Origin: Phycisphaerales bacterium
Lineage (GTDB): Bacteria; Planctomycetota; Phycisphaerae; Phycisphaerales; UBA1924
Length of the DNA stretch: 64,000 nucleotides
Assembly: GCA_035627955.1 (NCBI GenBank)
Contig: DASPKU010000006.1
Coordinates: forward strand, 62,001 to 126,000
Direction: 5' to 3'
Positions 23,799-32,393 of the stretch are shown here, piece after piece. Within the stretch, counting starts at the first letter, position 1; every line of letters starts with the position of its first letter. The notes beneath the pieces were generated by a model that had not been told where the DNA came from, ran no database searches, and saw only the letters and a list, made by a program, of their open reading frames with translations. The position numbers and the translations under genes were made by a program.

Positions 23799-24458
23799 TC
23801 AGCGTTCGACCAGGATTTTGGAAGCCGCGCGGGTGGAGAGGGTCACGCGTCGGCCGGTCGGCGCCGTCACAACGAGGGCGTCGGCGTTGGCGTCGGTGCT
23901 TTCGATGGTGATGGGCTCGCCGGGCTTGAGGCCGCTCTCCTCGACGAAGCGCAGGAAGCTTGCGTCCTGGTCGAGGATTCGGCCGATGCGGGTGCGCATC
24001 CCGGGCCTGCACGCGCCGAGGGGGATGAGGCGGCGGTCGGCGAGGGCGCCTTTGGCGGTGGGGATGGGGTCGCCGTGGGGGTCCACATCGGGGCGGCCCA
24101 GGAACTCGTCGATGCGGTCGAGCAGGCGGTCGGACATGGCGTGCTCGAGGCGCTCGGCCTCGTCGTGCACCTCGGACCAGTCGAAGCCGAGGGTCTGCAC
24201 CAGGAAAGTTTCGATGAGGCGGTGGCGGCGGAGGACGGCCAGCGCGAGACGCTCGCCCTTGGCCGTGAGGCGGATGCCGCCGTAACGCTTGGAAGTCACG
24301 AGCTTCTGCTCGGCGAGGCGTTTGATCATCGTTGTGACGGTGCCGGGGGTGACTCGGAGGTGGCGGGCGAGGTCGCCGACGGTTGCCTCACCCTCCCCCT
24401 GGAGGGCCAGAATCTGCTTGAGGTAGTCCTCGACGGTCTGGCTCGGCTGGCTGGGCAC
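23799..24458 (-). CDS. DtxR/MntR-family metal-dependent repressor
   Basis: A 219-residue transcription factor with all three DtxR-family parts. An N-terminal winged helix contains VGDLARHLRVTPGTVTTMIK. The dimerisation and metal-binding domain has VLRRHRLIETFLVQTLGF, VHDEAERLEHAMSD and DPHGDPIP, supplying the usual histidine and glutamate ligands. An SH3-like (FeoA-type) domain forms the C-terminus. The start is GTG complementary to 24456-24458. It is divergent from the metal-uptake genes at 24561-29985 and is the obvious candidate regulator. Whether it senses manganese, iron or zinc cannot be decided from sequence. Confidence 0.92.
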   Translation of the reverse strand: MPSQPSQTVEDYLKQILALQGEGEATVGDLARHLRVTPGTVTTMIKRLAEQKLVTSKRYGGIRLTAKGERLALAVLRRHRLIETFLVQTLGFDWSEVHDEAERLEHAMSDRLLDRIDEFLGRPDVDPHGDPIPTAKGALADRRLIPLGACRPGMRTRIGRILDQDASFLRFVEESGLKPGEPITIESTDANADALVVTAPTGRRVTLSTRAASKILVER

Positions 24459-24510: not shown

Positions 24511-24551
24511 AATCTTTGACGACTCAAACTTTGGAAGTTGGCTTGTCAAAG
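24511..24551. promoter_or_regulatory. Candidate operator between the metal repressor and uptake genes
   Basis: The short divergent gap has the inverted halves ctttgac (24514-24520) and gtcaaag (24545-24551), flanking a central caaactttg palindrome (24525-24533). It is unusually AT-rich for this genome and lies directly upstream of the outer-membrane gene. It does not match the classical DtxR box closely; assignment rests on position and symmetry. Confidence 0.45.
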
Positions 24552-24560
24552 GATAGCGGC

Positions 24561-25445
24561 ATGCGGGCATCCGGGCAGTTGCAGCTAGCGTTGGCGGTGG
24601 CGGCCGGGTGCGCGTCTGGCGCCGTCGCCGCGGGCGTGCTTCAAGGGGATGGGCCGGGCGGGGCGTCGCCGGCGGACAAGTCCGGGTACCACCTGTTTAA
24701 CCCGACGCCGCGGGAGCAGATGCGGGAGCTGAGCACCGACCGGCCGGACACGACGGAAAGCCCGTACACGGTCGATGCGGGGCACTTCCAAGTGGAGTTG
24801 TCGTTCGTTGACCTGTCCTTCGACGACACCGACAGCGTGGAAACGCGGGCGGTGTCGGTCGCGCCGATGCTGCTGAAGGTTGGATTGACGAACGATATTG
24901 ACCTTGCCCTGGGGCTGGACCCGTACACGCGCGTGCGCACCGAGGATGGCGCCGCGGAGGAGACGGTGGAAGGGTTCGGCGACACGGTCCTTCGGCTCAA
25001 GGCAAACCTGTGGGGCAACGACGGCGGGGACACGGCGCTGGCGCTGATGCCCTTTGTCAAGTTCCCGACCGCGAGCGATGGCCTTGGGAACGATCACGTT
25101 GAGGGCGGGCTGATCATCCCGTTCGGGATGTCGCTGCCTAACGAGTTCTCGATGGGTCTGATGGCCGAGTTCGACCTTATCCGCGACGCGGCGGACGAGG
25201 GGTACGTGGTGGACTTCGTGCATACCGCCACCATCGGGCGGCCGCTGGTGGGCGAGCTCTCGGGGTACGTTGAGTACGCGGGTTTCTACAACTTGAACGC
25301 CGATGAGGATTACCGCGGGTACTTCGACGCGGGGCTGACGTACGCCGTGACGGACGACCTGCAACTCGACACGGGCATCCGCGTGGGGCTGACGGAGGCG
25401 GCGGAGGACTTCGGCGTGTTCGCCGGGATTGCGTGGAGGTACTGA
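24561..25445 (+). CDS. Predicted outer-membrane beta-barrel protein of the metal-uptake operon
   Basis: A 294-residue exported protein. MRASGQLQLALAVAAGCASG is a signal peptide. The mature sequence from about residue 45 has STDRPDTTESPYTVDAGHFQ, typical of the transporter family related to phenol_MetA_deg barrels. Alternating strands follow, ending in the aromatic terminal FGVFAGIAWRY. ATG at 24561 follows AAAGGAT. It is the first gene of the run leading into the metal-binding lipoprotein, only 2 bp before that start. It may provide an outer-membrane path for the metal, by inference from location only. Confidence 0.8.
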   Translation: MRASGQLQLALAVAAGCASGAVAAGVLQGDGPGGASPADKSGYHLFNPTPREQMRELSTDRPDTTESPYTVDAGHFQVELSFVDLSFDDTDSVETRAVSVAPMLLKVGLTNDIDLALGLDPYTRVRTEDGAAEETVEGFGDTVLRLKANLWGNDGGDTALALMPFVKFPTASDGLGNDHVEGGLIIPFGMSLPNEFSMGLMAEFDLIRDAADEGYVVDFVHTATIGRPLVGELSGYVEYAGFYNLNADEDYRGYFDAGLTYAVTDDLQLDTGIRVGLTEAAEDFGVFAGIAWRY

Positions 25446-25447
25446 TT

Positions 25448-26491
25448 ATGCAGGCCATGTTTGCTGCTGTTTCGTCGAGGCTGACGTCGGTGTTGATGGT
25501 TCTGCTCGCGTGCGTGACTCTGGCCTTGAGCGGCTGCAAGGAGACCGCGAGCACCGCGGCCGTGGCGCCCAAGGCGGGCGCGAGCGGCGGGCCCAAGGTC
25601 GTCGCGACCACGGGCATGATCGCGGATGTGGCACGCACCATCGGGGCGGGTCGGGCGCAGGTGACGGCGCTCATGGGCGAGGGCGTGGACCCGCACCTGT
25701 ACAAGGCCTCGCCGGGTGATGTGCGGCTGCTGACCGACGCGGACATCATTCTGTACAACGGGCTGCACCTGGAGGGGCGGATGGCGGACGTGATCACGAA
25801 GATGGCGTCGGACACGACGGTCGTCCGCGTGACGGAATCGATGGACGAGTCGCAACTGCGGTCGCCGCCGGAGTTCGAGGGGCACTACGACCCGCACGTG
25901 TGGTTCGATGTGTCGCTGTGGAGCAAGGCTGCGGAGCGGACGCGGGATGCGCTGATCGCGAAGGACGCGGCGGGCAGGGACATGTACGCCAGGAACGCCA
26001 CGGCGTACCTCGAGAAACTCGCGGCGCTGCACGAGTACGCGAAGACGACGATCGCGACGATTCCTGAGGGCAGCCGCGTGATGGTCACGGCTCACGACGC
26101 GTTCGGCTACTTCGGGAGGGCCTACGGGATCGAGGTGTTGGCGATCCAGGGGATCAGCACCGACAGCGAGGCGAGCCTGCAGGACATCAACGGGCTGGTG
26201 GACACGCTGGTGTCGCGGAAGGTGCCGGCGGTGTTCATCGAGAGCAGTGTGCCGCGGAAGACGGTGGATGCGCTGGTGGAGGGGTGCGCCGCCCGCGGTC
26301 ACCAGGTGAAGGTTGGGGGCGAGCTGTTCAGTGACGCGATGGGCCCTGCGGGCACGCCCGAGGGGACGTACATCGGGATGGTGGTGCACAATGTGGACAC
26401 GGTGACGGCGGCCCTCGGTGGGAGCGTACCCGCGGAGAAGCCGGGGCTGCTGCTGTCGGGGATGGTCCCTCCACCTGCGGGGAAGCGTTGA
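25448..26491 (+). CDS. Metal ABC transporter substrate-binding lipoprotein (Mn/Zn type)
   Basis: A 347-residue cluster A-I binding protein that captures a divalent metal in the periplasm. The signal ends in the lipobox LALSGC. Metal-ligand blocks of the family are present in order: [22 protein letters not shown] and a C-terminal aspartate in [11 protein letters not shown], with [15 protein letters not shown] and [10 protein letters not shown] between. [13 protein letters not shown] at the N-terminus is also characteristic. ATG at 25448 is eight bases after GGAGG. It overlaps the ATPase gene at 26488-26491. There is no long histidine-rich loop of ZnuA type, so manganese is somewhat more likely. 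Confidence 0.92.
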
Positions 26492-27342
26492 ACGTGGATG
26501 GCGTCACACCAGTTCCGGCGTCGGCGGTCTCGAGTGCGGGCGATTTGCTGCCAGTAGGCACGCCGCCGGCGGTGAACACGCCGCCCTGCGTTGAGGTGCA
26601 CGACGTCACGGTCGCGTACCACCGCAAGCCGGTGCTGTGGGATGTGGATGTGCTGCTGCCCTCGGCGCGCCTGATCGCGATCGTGGGACCCAACGGCGCG
26701 GGCAAGTCCACGCTCCTAAAGGCAATCCTGGGGCTGGTGCCGACCGCGAGCGGGCGAATCGAGGTGTTCGGCAAGAAGCTCAAGCAGGTGCGCTCACGCA
26801 TCGGCTACGTGCCGCAACGGGAGACGGTGGACTGGGACTTCCCGGTGAGTGCGCTCGACGTGGTGCTCATGGGGCGGTACGGGCGGCTGGGGTGGATCAA
26901 GCGGCCGGGCAGGCACGACCGCGAGGTCGCGATGCACAGCCTCTCAAAGGTGGCGATGGCGGACTTCGCGCACCGGCAGATCAGCCAGCTCTCGGGCGGG
27001 CAGCAGCAGCGTGTGTTCCTGGCGCGGGCGCTGGCGCAGGAGGCGGACCTGTACTTCATGGATGAGCCTTTTGCGGGGGTGGACGCCGCGACGGAGCGGG
27101 CGATCGTGGAGGTGCTGCGCGAGCTGCGCTCGGCGGGGAAGACCGTGGTCGCGGTGCACCACGACCTCCAGACCGTGGCCGACTACTTCGACCACGTGGT
27201 GATGCTGAACATGCGGCTGGTGGCTGCGGGGCCGATTGAGACGACGTTCACGCCGCGGAACCTGCAGAACACCTACGGCGGACGGCTGACGATCCTGGAC
27301 GAGACGGCGGAATCGATCCGGCGCGGGGGGCGGACGCGGTAA
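26488..27342 (+). CDS. Metal ABC transporter ATP-binding protein
   Basis: A 284-residue ABC ATPase that powers metal import. Walker A is GPNGAGKST, the Q-loop lies in [15 protein letters not shown], the signature is LSGGQQQR, Walker B is LYFMDEPF and the switch histidine is in VAVHHDL. The sequence around the Q-loop is characteristic of Mn/Zn (MntA/ZnuC/TroB) transporters. The start is TTG at 26488 overlapping the previous stop, or GTG at 26494; both give a 35-residue N-terminal extension before the first strand. It is part of the five-gene metal locus. Confidence 0.93.
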
Positions 27343-27355
27343 GACGCGCCGAGGC

Positions 27356-28672
27356 ATGGACGAGCTGCTGCGATTACTCACCCTGCAGGATTCAAACACC
27401 CGCGTGGTGCTGCTGGGCACCTCGGTGCTGGGGGTGGCATCGGCGGTGATCGGCACGTTCGCGGTGCTGCGGCGGCGGTCGCTGGTGGGGGACGCGGTCG
27501 CCCACGCGGCGCTGCCGGGGGTGTGCGCCGCGTACTTTGCCGTCGGTGACCGCAACTTCGCGGCGTTCATGCTGGGGGCCCTGGTTTTTGGGGTCGCGGC
27601 CGCGGCGTTCGTGTCGTTCGTGCGGAGCGCGACACGGATCAAGGAGGACGCGGCGATCGCGCTGGCTATCGGCGGGTTCTTCGGCGTCGGCATCGTGCTG
27701 TCACGGATGATCCAGAACCAGCCGGGCGGCAACCGCGCGGGGATCGACAGCTTCATCTACGGCAAAGCCGCGAGCATGGTGGGGGATGACGCCCGCCTGA
27801 TCCTGGTCGTGGCGGCGGCCGTGCTGGGGACGGCGGCGCTGTTTTACAAGGAGTTCAAGGCGCTGTGCTTTGACCGCGACTTCGCGGCAAGCCAGGGCTG
27901 GCCGACGCTCACGCTCGACCTGTTGCTGATGGGGCTCATCTGCACGTGCACGGTGGTGGGGCTGCCGGCGGTGGGGGTGGTGCTCATGGTGTCGCTGCTG
28001 GTCATTCCGCCGGTGGCGGCACGGTTCTGGACCAATCGGCTGAGCACGATGCTGCTGATCGCGGCGGTGCTGGGCGGAGTCTCGGGGGTGCTAGGGACCG
28101 CGCTGAGCGCGACGCTTCCGGTGCCGGAAGATGTGCCCAGCCGTGGTTGGCCCACGGGTCCGCTGATCACGCTGGTGGCGACGGCGATCTTCGTGGTATC
28201 GCTGCTGCTGGCGCCGCGGCGCGGGCTGGTGGGGGACCTTGTGCGCCGGGTGTCGCTGCGGCGGCGGGTCGCCGAGCAGAACCTGTTGAGGGCTGTGTAC
28301 GAGCACCTCGAAGACTTGGGCGAGCTTGGCACTGAGTGGAGCGCGTCGCAGCTCGATGTGAGCGCGGAGGCGTTGCCGCGGATGGTGCGGCGGGGACTCG
28401 TGGCGCGCGCTGGCGCGGGCGCGTTCAGACTGACCGATGGTGGGCAGGCGGAGGCAGCGAAGGTGGTGCGGGCGCACCGGTTGTGGGAGCTATTCCTGAT
28501 CCAGCAGGCGGACATCGCGCCGGATCATGTGGATCGCGACGCCGACCAGATCGAGCACGTGCTGTCGCCGGAGGTGCTGGCGCACCTGGAGGAGCGGCTG
28601 CACGCGATGGGGCGGCTGCCGGGCGGCGTGCCGCGTTCGCCGCACCCGATCCACGCGGGGGGCACGGCGTGA
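27356..28672 (+). CDS. Metal ABC transporter permease fused to a DtxR-like domain (first)
   Basis: A 438-residue protein. Residues 1-295 form a MntB/ZnuB/TroC-type permease with about eight membrane helices (RRRSLVGDAVAHAALPG near TM2, then GLPAVGVVLMVSLLVIPP). Residues 300-438 are cytosolic: a winged-helix-like part followed by VVRAHRLWELFLIQQ, DQIEHVLSPEV and PHPI, which align with the metal-binding dimerisation region of DtxR/MntR. Some ligands differ: VDRDA replaces the usual VHEEA. The gene overlaps the next permease by 4 bp. The fusion suggests direct metal sensing by the transporter itself, which is an inference. Confidence 0.88.
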   Translation: MDELLRLLTLQDSNTRVVLLGTSVLGVASAVIGTFAVLRRRSLVGDAVAHAALPGVCAAYFAVGDRNFAAFMLGALVFGVAAAAFVSFVRSATRIKEDAAIALAIGGFFGVGIVLSRMIQNQPGGNRAGIDSFIYGKAASMVGDDARLILVVAAAVLGTAALFYKEFKALCFDRDFAASQGWPTLTLDLLLMGLICTCTVVGLPAVGVVLMVSLLVIPPVAARFWTNRLSTMLLIAAVLGGVSGVLGTALSATLPVPEDVPSRGWPTGPLITLVATAIFVVSLLLAPRRGLVGDLVRRVSLRRRVAEQNLLRAVYEHLEDLGELGTEWSASQLDVSAEALPRMVRRGLVARAGAGAFRLTDGGQAEAAKVVRAHRLWELFLIQQADIAPDHVDRDADQIEHVLSPEVLAHLEERLHAMGRLPGGVPRSPHPIHAGGTA

Positions 28673-29985
28673 GTGCGCTGTTCACCATCGCGGGGTACGA
28701 GGTACGGGCGACGGACGTGTGGATCGTCGCTACGGCCGCGGCGTCGTCGGTCGCGTGCGGGCTGCTGGGGTGCTACCTCGTGCTGCGGCGGATGTCGCTG
28801 CTGGGGGACGCGATCTCGCACGCGATCCTGCCGGGGCTGGCGCTGGCGTTCATCGTGACGCACAGCCGCGAGCCGCTGCCGATGCTGATGGGGGCGCTGG
28901 TGGTGGGGGTGGCGACGGCGGTGACGTCGGCGGGGCTCTCGCGGTGGGGGAAGGTGCCCGAGGACGCGGCCATGGGTGTCGTGTTCACGGCGCTGTTCGC
29001 CGTGGGCGTGATCCTGATCACCTTCCACGCGCACAAGGTGGACCTGGACCCCGGGTGCGTGCTGTACGGGCTGCTGGAGATGGTGCCCTTCGACAGGGTG
29101 AGCGTGCTTGGGCTCGAGCTGCCGCGGTCCTTCGCGTTCCTGAGCGGGCTGCTATGCGTGCTGGTGCTGCTGATCGCGCTGTTCTTCAAGGAGCTCAAGA
29201 TCGTCTCGTTCGATCCGTACCTGGCCACGACCATGGGGATCAACGCGGCGGTCGTGCACTACGCCCTGATGACCGGTGTCGCCGCTACGTGCGTGGCGTC
29301 GTTTGAAGCGGTGGGGTCGATCCTGGTAGTGGCGATGCTGGTGGCGCCGGGGGCGACGGCGCACCTGCTGACCGACCGGCTGTCGCGGATGCTGGTGATC
29401 TCCGCGGTCGTGGCGACGCTCAGCGCGGTGCTGGGGTACGTGATGTCGGTGGTGCTGAACACCTCGGTCGCGGGGTCGATCAGCACGGTGGCGTTGGGGC
29501 TGTTCGTGCTCGCGGTGGTCTTCGCGCCCAGGCACGGGTGGTTGCCGCGCCAATGGCGGCGGCTGGCGCTGGCCCTGCGGATCACGCAGGAGGATGTGCT
29601 GGGGCTGCTGTACCGCTGGCAGGAGCAGCAGGCCGCGGCCGCCAACCCGCACCCGCCGACCGTCCGCGAGGTGCTGGAGGCGACGCATTCCGGTTGGCTG
29701 GGGCGGGTTTCGCTCTTCGTGCTGGGGCGGCGGGGGCTGGTGCGGTCGAGCGCGGGGGCGCTGGCGCCCACTCAGGCGGGGATCGAAGTTGCCCGGCACG
29801 TCGTCCGCGGGCACCGTTTATGGGAGACCTACCTGGCGAAGCACCTGGCGGTGGACCCCGGTCGGGTGCACTCGCCGGCCCACAGGGCCGAGCACTACCT
29901 GACGCCGGGGATCCAGGCGAGCCTGGACCAGGACGTGGGCACCGGTCAGGACCCGCACGGGAAGCCGATCCCGCCGCGGGATTGA
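28669..29985 (+). CDS. Metal ABC transporter permease fused to a DtxR-like domain (second)
   Basis: Also 438 residues, beginning at GTG 28669 inside a GTGA overlap. The N-terminal permease domain has the same fold as the upstream gene (RRMSLLGDAISHAILPGLAL, GSILVVAMLVAPGATAHLL). The C-terminal domain from about residue 302 has VVRGHRLWETYLAKHLAVDP, VHSPAHRAEHYLTP and DPHGKPIP, with the DtxR histidine positions better kept than in the first permease. Two different permeases imply a heterodimeric channel. The identical length and architecture indicate duplication of an already fused gene. Confidence 0.88.
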   Translation: MSALFTIAGYEVRATDVWIVATAAASSVACGLLGCYLVLRRMSLLGDAISHAILPGLALAFIVTHSREPLPMLMGALVVGVATAVTSAGLSRWGKVPEDAAMGVVFTALFAVGVILITFHAHKVDLDPGCVLYGLLEMVPFDRVSVLGLELPRSFAFLSGLLCVLVLLIALFFKELKIVSFDPYLATTMGINAAVVHYALMTGVAATCVASFEAVGSILVVAMLVAPGATAHLLTDRLSRMLVISAVVATLSAVLGYVMSVVLNTSVAGSISTVALGLFVLAVVFAPRHGWLPRQWRRLALALRITQEDVLGLLYRWQEQQAAAANPHPPTVREVLEATHSGWLGRVSLFVLGRRGLVRSSAGALAPTQAGIEVARHVVRGHRLWETYLAKHLAVDPGRVHSPAHRAEHYLTPGIQASLDQDVGTGQDPHGKPIPPRD

Positions 29986-30234: not shown

Positions 30235-31152
30235 ATGCTGCCCATCCCGCACACCCAGCCGGCGGTCTGGCCCCAGGGGATGCCTACCAGCCGATTGGCC
30301 GCCCACTTCCATTCGGTGCCTGCCGGCTGCCGCGTGGCCCTGATTGGGCTGCCCGATGATGAGGGGGTGCGGCTGAACAACGGGCGGCCCGGGGCGGCGG
30401 GGGGGCCGAGGGCAGTACGGCAGGCGCTCGCGGCGTACGGCGTCGCGGAGCCGGATGGCTTTAGGTGGCCGGGCGTGTTCGATGCGGGGGATGTCACGCC
30501 GGGCAAGGACATCCACGAGACGCACCAGCGGGTGACGGAGGCGACCGCGGCGATCCTGGCCCACAAACTGCTGCCGATCGCGATCGGGGGCGGGCACGAC
30601 CTGACCTTCCCGTTCGTGCGGGCGGTGATCGAGCACGAGAAGAAGGGGACCGAGGGCAAGGTCCCGCCAATGGCCGGCGTGTACTTCGACGCGCACCTGG
30701 ACGTGCGCGACACGGTGGGGTCCGGGATGCCGTTCCGCAGCCTGGTGGAGCAGTGCGGCGTGCGCGAGCTGCACGTCTTCGGGCTCAGCCCCTTCGCCAA
30801 CACGCGCGAGCACGTGGAGTGGTTCAAGGCCCACGGCGGGCGCATCCACAGCCACAAGGCGCACCAGCAGCAGGGCGGGCCGATGCACATGCCGGCGCTG
30901 GGCAACTGCTTCGTGAGCTTCGACGTGGACGTGCTGGACTCTTCGTGCGCGCCGGGGGTGTCGGCGATGAACCCCTCGGGGTGGAGCGTGGCGCAGGCGG
31001 AGGCGTGGGTGTACGGGGCGGGGCGGAGCGAGCGGGTGCGGTGCTTTGACATCATGGAGCTCAACCCGGCGGTGGACGAGACGGGGCGGACGGCGCGCGT
31101 TGCGGCGCACCTGCTGCTCACATTCCTGCGGGGCTTTGCGGAGAGGCACTGA
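30235..31152 (+). CDS. hutG: Arginase/formimidoylglutamase-family hydrolase, probable HutG
   Basis: A 305-residue binuclear manganese hydrolase. Ligand motifs of the ureohydrolase family are present: GGGHD, DAHLDVR and SFDVDVLDSSCAPGVSA. The family includes arginase, agmatinase and formimidoylglutamase. The adjacent imidazolonepropionase gene, overlapping by one base, favours formimidoylglutamase, which converts N-formimidoyl-glutamate to glutamate and formamide in histidine breakdown. The ATG at 30235 is the first start. HutH and HutU are not in the window. Confidence 0.82.
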   Translation: MLPIPHTQPAVWPQGMPTSRLAAHFHSVPAGCRVALIGLPDDEGVRLNNGRPGAAGGPRAVRQALAAYGVAEPDGFRWPGVFDAGDVTPGKDIHETHQRVTEATAAILAHKLLPIAIGGGHDLTFPFVRAVIEHEKKGTEGKVPPMAGVYFDAHLDVRDTVGSGMPFRSLVEQCGVRELHVFGLSPFANTREHVEWFKAHGGRIHSHKAHQQQGGPMHMPALGNCFVSFDVDVLDSSCAPGVSAMNPSGWSVAQAEAWVYGAGRSERVRCFDIMELNPAVDETGRTARVAAHLLLTFLRGFAERH

Positions 31153-32393
31153 TGGCGCGGATCCTGTTCACGCATGCGCGGGTGCTGACGCTGGCGAAGG
31201 GGCCGCGGCCTCGGCGCGGGAAGGACCTGGGCGAGCTGGGGGTGATCGCTTCGGCGGACGTGCTGGTCGAGAACGGGGTGGTGTCGCACGTGTTCGCGCC
31301 GGGGGCTGGGCCGACGGACCCCGGCGTGCACGTGGTGGAGGCGGCGGGGCGGGTGCTCATGCCCGCGTTCATCGACTGCCACACGCACGCGTGCTGGACG
31401 GGCTCACGGATCGATGAGTGGGAGCAGAAGCTCGCGGGTGCGACGTACCTGGACATCCTCGCCAAGGGCGGGGGGATCATGTCGACGGTGCGGGCCGTGC
31501 GTGGGGTGTCGCAGATGCAGCTGCGCGACCAGACGCTGGCGCACCTGCACGACTTCATCCTGCAGGGCACAACGACTGTCGAAGTCAAGAGCGGTTATGG
31601 CCTGTCCACCGAGCACGAGCTGAAGATGCTGCGGGCCACGCGCGAGGCCGCCAAGGTGTGGGCGGGGACGGTCGTGCAGACGGCGCTGCTGGGGCATGCG
31701 GTGGAGCCGGACGACCCGCGGTTCGTCGAGCGGGTGATCAGCGAAACGTTGCCGGCCGTTGTGCGGGAGTTCCCGCACATCCCGGTGGATGTGTTCTGCG
31801 AGGCGTCGTCCTGGTCCGTTGATGACGCCGCGGCGCTGCTGAAGGCGGCCATGGCGGCGGGGTGCCCGGTGCGGGCGCACGCGGACCAGTTCAACTCGCT
31901 GGGCTTCGTGCGGCAGTGCATCGAGCTGGGGGCGCGGAGCGTGGACCACCTGGAGGCCTCGACGCCCGAGGACCTGCGGGCGCTCGCGGCCTCGCGCACG
32001 ATCGGCGTGGGGCTGCCGGTGTGCGGAATGCATCTGGACGGGCGCTACCCGAACCTCAAGGCGGTCGTCGAGGCTGGAGGGGCTGTGGCCATCGCGACCA
32101 ACAGCAACCCGGGCTCGGCGCCGACGAGCTCGATGCCGATGGCAATCGCGGCGGCGGTGCGGCACTGCGGGCTGAGCGCGGCGCAGGCGATTGCGGCGGC
32201 GACGGTGAACGCGGCGGCCGTGCTGGGGCTGCCGGACCGCGGAGTGATCGCGCACGGAGCGCGGGCGGACCTGATCCTGCTGCGGCACAAGGACGAGCGG
32301 GCGCTGGCCTATGAGCTGGGCGGGAACCCGGTGGACCTGGTGGTCTGCGGCGGGCGGGTCTTCACTACGAAGCCAACACCTTCCGATATGTGA
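31152..32393 (+). CDS. hutI: Imidazolonepropionase
   Basis: A 413-residue amidohydrolase that opens imidazolone-5-propionate to formimidoyl-glutamate in histidine degradation. The metal site is seen in PAFIDCHTHACWTGSR, followed by HutI-specific EWEQKLAGATYLDIL and GGGIMSTVRAVR. TTVEVKSGYGLSTEHELKML, the HADQFN segment and ATNSNPGSAPTSSMP complete the family pattern. Its ATG shares a base with the upstream hutG stop, so the pair is coupled. The last 29 bp overlap the convergent methyltransferase gene. Confidence 0.95.
   Translation: MARILFTHARVLTLAKGPRPRRGKDLGELGVIASADVLVENGVVSHVFAPGAGPTDPGVHVVEAAGRVLMPAFIDCHTHACWTGSRIDEWEQKLAGATYLDILAKGGGIMSTVRAVRGVSQMQLRDQTLAHLHDFILQGTTTVEVKSGYGLSTEHELKMLRATREAAKVWAGTVVQTALLGHAVEPDDPRFVERVISETLPAVVREFPHIPVDVFCEASSWSVDDAAALLKAAMAAGCPVRAHADQFNSLGFVRQCIELGARSVDHLEASTPEDLRALAASRTIGVGLPVCGMHLDGRYPNLKAVVEAGGAVAIATNSNPGSAPTSSMPMAIAAAVRHCGLSAAQAIAAATVNAAAVLGLPDRGVIAHGARADLILLRHKDERALAYELGGNPVDLVVCGGRVFTTKPTPSDM

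Follow-up and report, generated by a model that had tools for sequence, protein, structure and literature searches.

What would the metal-sensing part of a transcriptional repressor do when it is attached to a membrane transporter? This question is raised by two adjacent genes, here called P1 and P2, in a 64,000-nucleotide stretch of DNA from a Phycisphaerales bacterium (GenBank assembly GCA_035627955.1, contig DASPKU010000006.1, positions 62,001 to 126,000 of the forward strand) that we refer to as the window. P1 and P2 encode the two permease halves of an ATP-binding cassette (ABC) importer of the Mn/Fe/Zn type, and each carries a C-terminal extension that resembles repressors of the DtxR/MntR family. 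An earlier note on this sequence had proposed that the extensions are the metal-binding and dimerization part of the neighboring repressor, that they have no obvious DNA-binding purpose, and that they may gate transport according to cytosolic metal. We computed the fold of the extensions, the conservation of their ligands and their wide occurrence, and found the DNA-binding signature of DtxR to be missing from them. Taken with the operon context, these results are best explained by a metal sensor with feedback control over the transporter, a proposal to which we give slightly less than an even chance.

Fold and metal ligands of the permease extensions

Pfam matches to the ABC-3 permease family cover residues 14-285 of P1 (expectation value, E, 8e-62) and 20-285 of P2 (8e-50), and the same scan found no FeoA domain in either protein. 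The start of P2 overlaps the stop of P1 by 4 bases. Structure alignment places the DtxR-like fold at about residues 301-438 of both proteins (approximately 138 residues), which agrees with the initial estimate of about 135 additional C-terminal residues; the motifs described with that estimate are present as HRLWELFL, EHVLSP and SPHPI in P1 and as HRLWETYL, EHYLTP and DPHGKPIP in P2. For comparison we used 80 loci, the best 80 of at least 576 confirmed matches to the P1 extension, and because loci were chosen in this way conservation figures favor close relatives; 23 more distant loci (L135 to L157) were added to reach beyond these. The P1 alignment contains the window protein and 71 of 78 sequences (seven apparent near-duplicates were left out), the P2 alignment the window protein and 42 of 44 sequences (two cut by contig ends were left out), and the alignment of stand-alone repressors the window repressor and 36 of 40 candidates (L056, L066 and two L084 frames were left out). 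The C-terminal domain is carried by 72/72 aligned P1 and 43/43 aligned P2 proteins, which places its presence on the permeases beyond chance.

AlphaFold models built on these alignments (72 rows for P1, 43 rows for P2) have mean predicted local distance difference test (pLDDT) scores of 91.7 and 92.9, respectively. A Foldseek search with the P1 model returned PsaBC as the top match, followed by other permeases of the BtuC type and, at E values of 0.002-0.008, chains of DtxR, IdeR, SloR and a Deinococcus MntR-like protein. VIA-align matched both models to PsaBC and to structures of the DtxR/MntR type, with P1 superposing on DtxR (1p92) at Z 13.4 and 2.2 Å over 122 residues and P2 superposing on a Mn-bound repressor (5zr6) at Z 18.4 and 1.3 Å over 126 residues. 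A Z of about 13 is weak on its own for a helical domain; the Pfam sequence match of P1 concurs. The predicted fold of both extensions is thus that of DtxR/MntR and not an unrelated one. Both models show a helix (31-33 residues, 291-321/323; block pLDDT at least 91) that runs from just past the last membrane helix into repressor helix 1, where DtxR and MntR have one of their metal ligands (Met10/Asp8) as described in PMC4805248.

Ligand positions were taken from the sites of DtxR, MntR, ScaR, SloR and MtsR as given in PMC4805248 and PMC9253540 and transferred to the window proteins by our own alignment, which yields N309, H374, E378, H391, D393, D397, E400, H401 and H430 as potential ligands in P1 and D309, H382, E386, H401, H405, E408, H409, D428 and H430 in P2. 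Six P1 residues (H374, E378, D397, E400, H401 and H430) are found in 72/72 homologs, with D393 in 70/72 and H391 in 67/72; at the helix-1 position 309, 54 proteins have H, 17 have N and 1 has D (H or N in 71/72). In P2, H382, E386 and H401 are invariant (43/43), D309, E408, H409 and D428 each occur in 42/43 and H430 in 36/43, while position 405, the equivalent of DtxR Cys102, is variable (E in 19, M in 8, H in 5, others in the remainder). The ligands are therefore conserved across the main family, but the suggestion that they are better kept in the second permease is contradicted by these counts. In having the metal-binding and dimerization domain with its ligand residues, the fused proteins resemble DtxR, MntR, SloR, MtsR and IdeR in both fold and ligand positions; they differ in being joined to a membrane permease and, in the window, in the absence of FeoA. 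The tryptophan of the HRLWE motif marks the fused kind, as it is present in 72/72 P1 and 42/43 P2 proteins and in 0/37 stand-alone proteins. Among the more distant loci, L135, L138, L139, L140 and L153 represent a planctomycete family that keeps the P1 extension and has lost most of the metal ligands there.

The DNA-binding half and the case for feedback on transport

The N-terminal helix-turn-helix (HTH) domain by which the DtxR/MntR family is recognized in Pfam (PF01325, Fe_dep_repress) was detected in 0/72 P1 and 0/43 P2 proteins, that is in 0/115 fused proteins versus 37/37 stand-alone neighbors, and was also not found in two further sets of permeases that were scanned (four and ten, five of them with the longer DtxR-like tail described below). 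Mean information in the recognition-helix columns is 1.34 bits for P1, 1.37 bits for P2 and 2.20 bits for stand-alone neighbors, while the metal-bearing helices 4 and 5 have 2.4-3.3 bits in the fused sets and 2.2-2.5 bits in the stand-alone set; the P1 values are rough because segment limits follow the P1 of the window, which has an unusual HTH region. In the fused proteins the metal ligands are thus nearly invariant, in contrast to a drifting DNA-reading part. A profile of the stand-alone winged helix-turn-helix (wHTH) matched 3 of the 115 fused N-terminal halves at E ≤ 0.01, and weakly (best 10.3 bits), and 84 at E ≤ 10, results which suggest that the fused half is a remote relative of the stand-alone wHTH and not something unrelated.

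These features, namely kept ligands, a kept dimerization domain and a lost DNA-reading signature, would suit a sensor that no longer acts through DNA, and since the attached permease is its nearest possible target we favor feedback on transport. In such a mechanism the two extensions would adjoin in the assembled importer and form a DtxR-like pair, which would bind metal and close when cytosolic metal is plentiful. The closed pair, acting via the long helix that extends from the last transmembrane helix, would then hold the permease or the ATPases in a non-transporting state (trans-inhibition), and transcription control in the window would be left to the separate DtxR/MntR gene nearby. More tentatively, and well short of an even chance, the metal-sensing half of a repressor may have been recruited as an allosteric importer switch in Planctomycetota, Verrucomicrobiota and their relatives, with the double-fused form acting as one asymmetric sensor (H/N-D-E-H in P1, D-x-E-H in P2) that shuts uptake at high cytosolic metal.

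Precedent by analogy comes from MetNI and ModBC (ModABC), which a 2023 review (PMC10710835) describes as trans-inhibited ABC importers that are shut by substrate-binding regulatory domains. Like P1 and P2 they bear a cytoplasmic regulatory domain; unlike P1 and P2 they carry it on the ATPase, in other folds and with demonstrated feedback, whereas the domains discussed here are on the permeases and the feedback is proposed. The ATPase of the window has no regulatory domain detectable by Pfam, the sensor-like domain being on the permeases instead. The term DtxR is absent from the main text of that review, which concerns post-translational control of bacterial transporters, and among the open-licence papers listed by our literature searches we saw neither double fusions nor gating of importers by a DtxR domain.

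The main rival explanation is that the extension is a metal-dependent transcriptional repressor that is made as a permease fusion and is either proteolytically released or membrane-tethered. This reading is kept alive by the closest studied relative, YtgCR (CT069/CTL0325) of Chlamydia trachomatis, a TroC-like permease followed by a DtxR-like domain and encoded in a ytgABCD operon, in which the C-terminal 139 residues have been used as the repressor domain. YtgR is described as an iron-dependent repressor (PMC5599777) that is cleaved off and binds DNA in Chlamydia (PMC5599777; PMC6504234 in eLife; PMC7755916 in Nature Communications). P1 and P2 share its architecture, an ABC-3 permease with a C-terminal DtxR-like domain of similar size. 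In the descriptions of the chlamydial system YtgC alone is fused and its domain is cleaved and DNA-binding; P1 and P2, by contrast, are both fusions, and no DtxR HTH signature was detected in them. A repressor role also sits poorly with the drifting recognition helix, with the reduced HTH of the window P1, with a junction that is a continuous and confidently modeled helix and not a loose linker, and with the intact stand-alone repressor close to the operon; additionally, some P2 proteins (L143, L144, L150 and L155) retain a winged helix but no metal domain. On balance we consider this reading less likely than feedback on transport, though the likeliest of the rivals.

Several observations weigh against a sensor that acts on transport, and some of them favor a repressor. 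The winged-helix fold is retained in the models: the P2 model has all winged-helix elements (332-339, 343-354 and two strands), and the P1 extension as a whole still superposes on DtxR, even though its model has no helix of at least 4 residues between 321 and 339 and a recognition helix of 7 residues (339-345). Weak generic winged-helix matches also occur, with HVO_A0261_N in 3/72 P1 proteins (best E 0.002) and, among the more distant loci, HVO_A0261_N (0.0008) and MarR_2 (0.004) in L148, CggR_N (0.0027) in L154 and HTH_45 (0.022) in L146. An R-S-W-S motif is conserved in the HTH region of P1 homologs. Net charge of the HTH and wing, tried as a sign of DNA binding, did not distinguish the sets (P1 +2.3, P2 +1.7, stand-alone +1.8). 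The domain is dispensable for one permease (L005, L006, L012, L017 and most P2 proteins of Verrucomicrobiota), most P1 ligands are lost in 6 of the 23 more distant loci as judged by eye (the planctomycete family above and L149), and 5 of 18 searched genomes have no convincing stand-alone DtxR. Finally, YtgCR is compared here by description, and the argument from PF01325 would lose its worth if YtgR too were without this domain. The claims of the earlier note are accordingly modified. The metal-binding and dimerization part of the repressor is indeed present in the extension, but a winged-helix half also lies upstream of it, complete in the P2 model and reduced in that of P1. The absence of a DNA-binding purpose is favored by the lack of PF01325 and the drift of the HTH part, but is opposed by the persistence of the winged-helix fold and by the binding of DNA described for YtgCR after cleavage, a precedent absent from that note.

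Some of these same observations bear on a mainly structural role, in which the extension aids assembly of the permease halves or ATPases and metal binding is a relic or involves a structural metal. Loss of ligands in some lineages, reduction of some P2 domains to a winged helix and conservation in P1 of R-S-W-S, which is not a ligand motif, would all be consistent with this role. It is nevertheless improbable given ligands that are near-invariant in the main family, including loci in which P1 alone is fused.

Distribution, stand-alone regulators and origin

Permease-DtxR fusions are an established kind, with orthologous permease-repressor fusions reported in 11 phyla by Thompson et al. 2012 as cited in the review PMC5599777. 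What is new, in addition to the undetected PF01325 and to ligands that are kept while the DNA-reading part drifts, is the fusion of both permeases, which occurs in 36/40 Planctomycetota loci (1 cut, 3 with P2 not found) versus fusion of P1 only in 25/30 Verrucomicrobiota loci (both in 1, cut in 3, counted as neither in 1, L084). Both permeases are likewise fused in 2/2 Kiritimatiellota loci, in single Acidobacteriota, Spirochaetota and Omnitrophota loci and in two of three loci without a phylum label (P2 was not found in the third), and P1 only in 2/2 Pseudomonadota loci. No chlamydial locus is present by name among the best 80. Overall, P1 and its domain lie in one frame in 79/80 of these loci, with L084 having the parts in different frames. 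The domain is present on P2 in 44 loci and absent from it in 28, with P2 truncated at a contig end in 4 further loci and not found in the other 4.

A first search had matched 58/61 genomes, and of the 29 best loci besides that of the window 25 have the domain on both permeases; L012 is without it on P1 and L017 without it on P2. In L005 and L006, P1, its DtxR-like domain and P2 occupy a single frame (873 and 813 codons) with no P2 extension, forming a permease-sensor-permease chain. Matches that reach model position 409 or beyond, as read by us from the match rows, were obtained in 48/199 genomes of the same phylum as the window and in 19/145 genomes (plus G374 in two pieces) of the phylum of a Verrucomicrobiota locus; the remaining matches in both surveys mostly cover the permease part only. 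Other variants were seen among the more distant loci. In L143, L144, L150 and L155 the full domain is kept on the first permease, whereas the second has a C-terminal winged helix of about 90 residues and no metal domain. In L146, L147, L148, L156 and L157 the permease has a longer tail that resembles full DtxR including a FeoA-like third domain, for which L146 gave the sole Pfam FeoA match among the five, below the cut-off; no second permease was seen in the fetched stretch of these five loci.

A stand-alone DtxR gene is present within the fetched stretch in 40/68 loci that have at least 4.5 kb upstream. Genome searches for 18 of the 28 loci without such a neighbor, with two further genomes that have one as controls, located a two-domain stand-alone protein elsewhere in 13 and no convincing stand-alone DtxR anywhere in 5 (L050, L101, L037, L069 and L086, which are possibly incomplete), so that these five may have no regulator other than the fused domain. 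These counts also bear on a relay or anchor, in which the extension would take incoming metal at the cytoplasmic mouth and pass it to, or pair with, a stand-alone DtxR/MntR, thereby signaling uptake flux. Both partners share the metal-binding and dimerization domain and the 40 loci provide a partner close by, but the 28 loci with none in the stretch argue against it, and we regard a relay as quite improbable.

Two simple origins were considered and rejected as the likely ones. Recent copying of the neighboring repressor onto the permeases is not favored by the extension tree, which has few columns and weak support, and which puts the stand-alone proteins in two starred sets and the window extensions with other fused ones. 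The extension is homologous to the neighboring repressor and is not placed by this tree as its recent copy. Duplication of one fused permease is not favored by the permease tree, a quick tree with support from the Shimodaira-Hasegawa-like approximate likelihood ratio test (SH-aLRT) only. Because the P1 and P2 permease domains form two separate starred clades in it, with unfused pairs outside both, the two permease halves are likely older than the double fusion. Fused and unfused P2 proteins are interleaved in this tree, and L130 has P1-like and P2-like permeases that are both without an extension.

The operon in the window and its meaning for the family

The fused permeases are the final two genes of an operon that is ordered binding protein, ATPase, P1 and P2 (Table 1).

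Table 1. Coordinates, in window positions, of the importer operon, the permease extensions and the nearby repressor
Feature	Position	Strand	Details	Evidence
Stand-alone DtxR/MntR repressor	23799..24458	-	HTH, metal-binding/dimerization and FeoA domains; divergent from the operon	Pfam
Metal substrate-binding protein	25433..26491	+	PF01297 (ZnuA)	Pfam
ATPase subunit of importer	26488..27342	+		Pfam
P1, ABC-3 permease with DtxR-like C-terminal domain	27356..28672	+	438 aa	Pfam, AlphaFold, Foldseek, VIA-align
P1 C-terminal extension	28226..28669	+	residues 291-438; winged helix reduced, preceded by a long connecting helix (291-321) and followed by metal-binding/dimerization helices	
P1 Fe_dep_repr_C (PF02742)	28433..28627	+	residues 360-424; 2.7e-16, above Pfam cut-off	
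P2, ABC-3 permease with DtxR-like C-terminal domain	28669..29985	+	438 aa, GTG start	Pfam, AlphaFold, VIA-align
P2 C-terminal extension	29539..29982	+	residues 291-438; complete winged helix and metal-binding/dimerization domain	
P2 Fe_dep_repr_C (PF02742)	29770..29973	+	residues 368-435; 9.4e-18, above Pfam cut-off	

The combination of a PF01297 substrate-binding protein, which we take to be TroA-like, an ATPase and two ABC-3 permeases in one operon is that of PsaABC, TroABCD and MntABC importers, with PsaBC the best structural match; unlike these systems, the permeases here have cytoplasmic sensor-like extensions. In the source genome (95.67% complete), PF02742 matches at E ≤ 0.001 are confined to P1, P2 and the stand-alone repressor, the last of which is likely the transcriptional regulator. 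The region that separates the repressor gene from the operon was searched for an operator palindrome and gave only a 14-base, 79% imperfect candidate at 24551-24572, which we do not rely on. Between the repressor and the metal-binding protein is a gene (24516-25445, + strand) for a PF13557 protein (2.4e-23), presumably of an outer-membrane-type family; its relatives occur in 10/80 fused loci, which makes it a possible outer-membrane partner of the importer. A tRNA-Met (CAT) gene lies directly downstream of P2 (30044-30118, - strand), and 3' of the operon (30235-32393, + strand) are genes for an arginase-family protein and an amidohydrolase, which by our assumption resemble the histidine-degradation enzymes formimidoylglutamase and imidazolonepropionase.

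If gating is correct, Mn/Fe/Zn ABC importers would be subject to direct metal feedback by a repressor-related domain, and it would be necessary to reconsider "permease-repressor fusions" that have been interpreted on the Chlamydia YtgR model. If the extensions are instead repressors, the dual fusions of Planctomycetota would allow membrane-made transcription factors to be studied in free-living systems. With either reading, the invariant ligands define clear mutants for testing this family.

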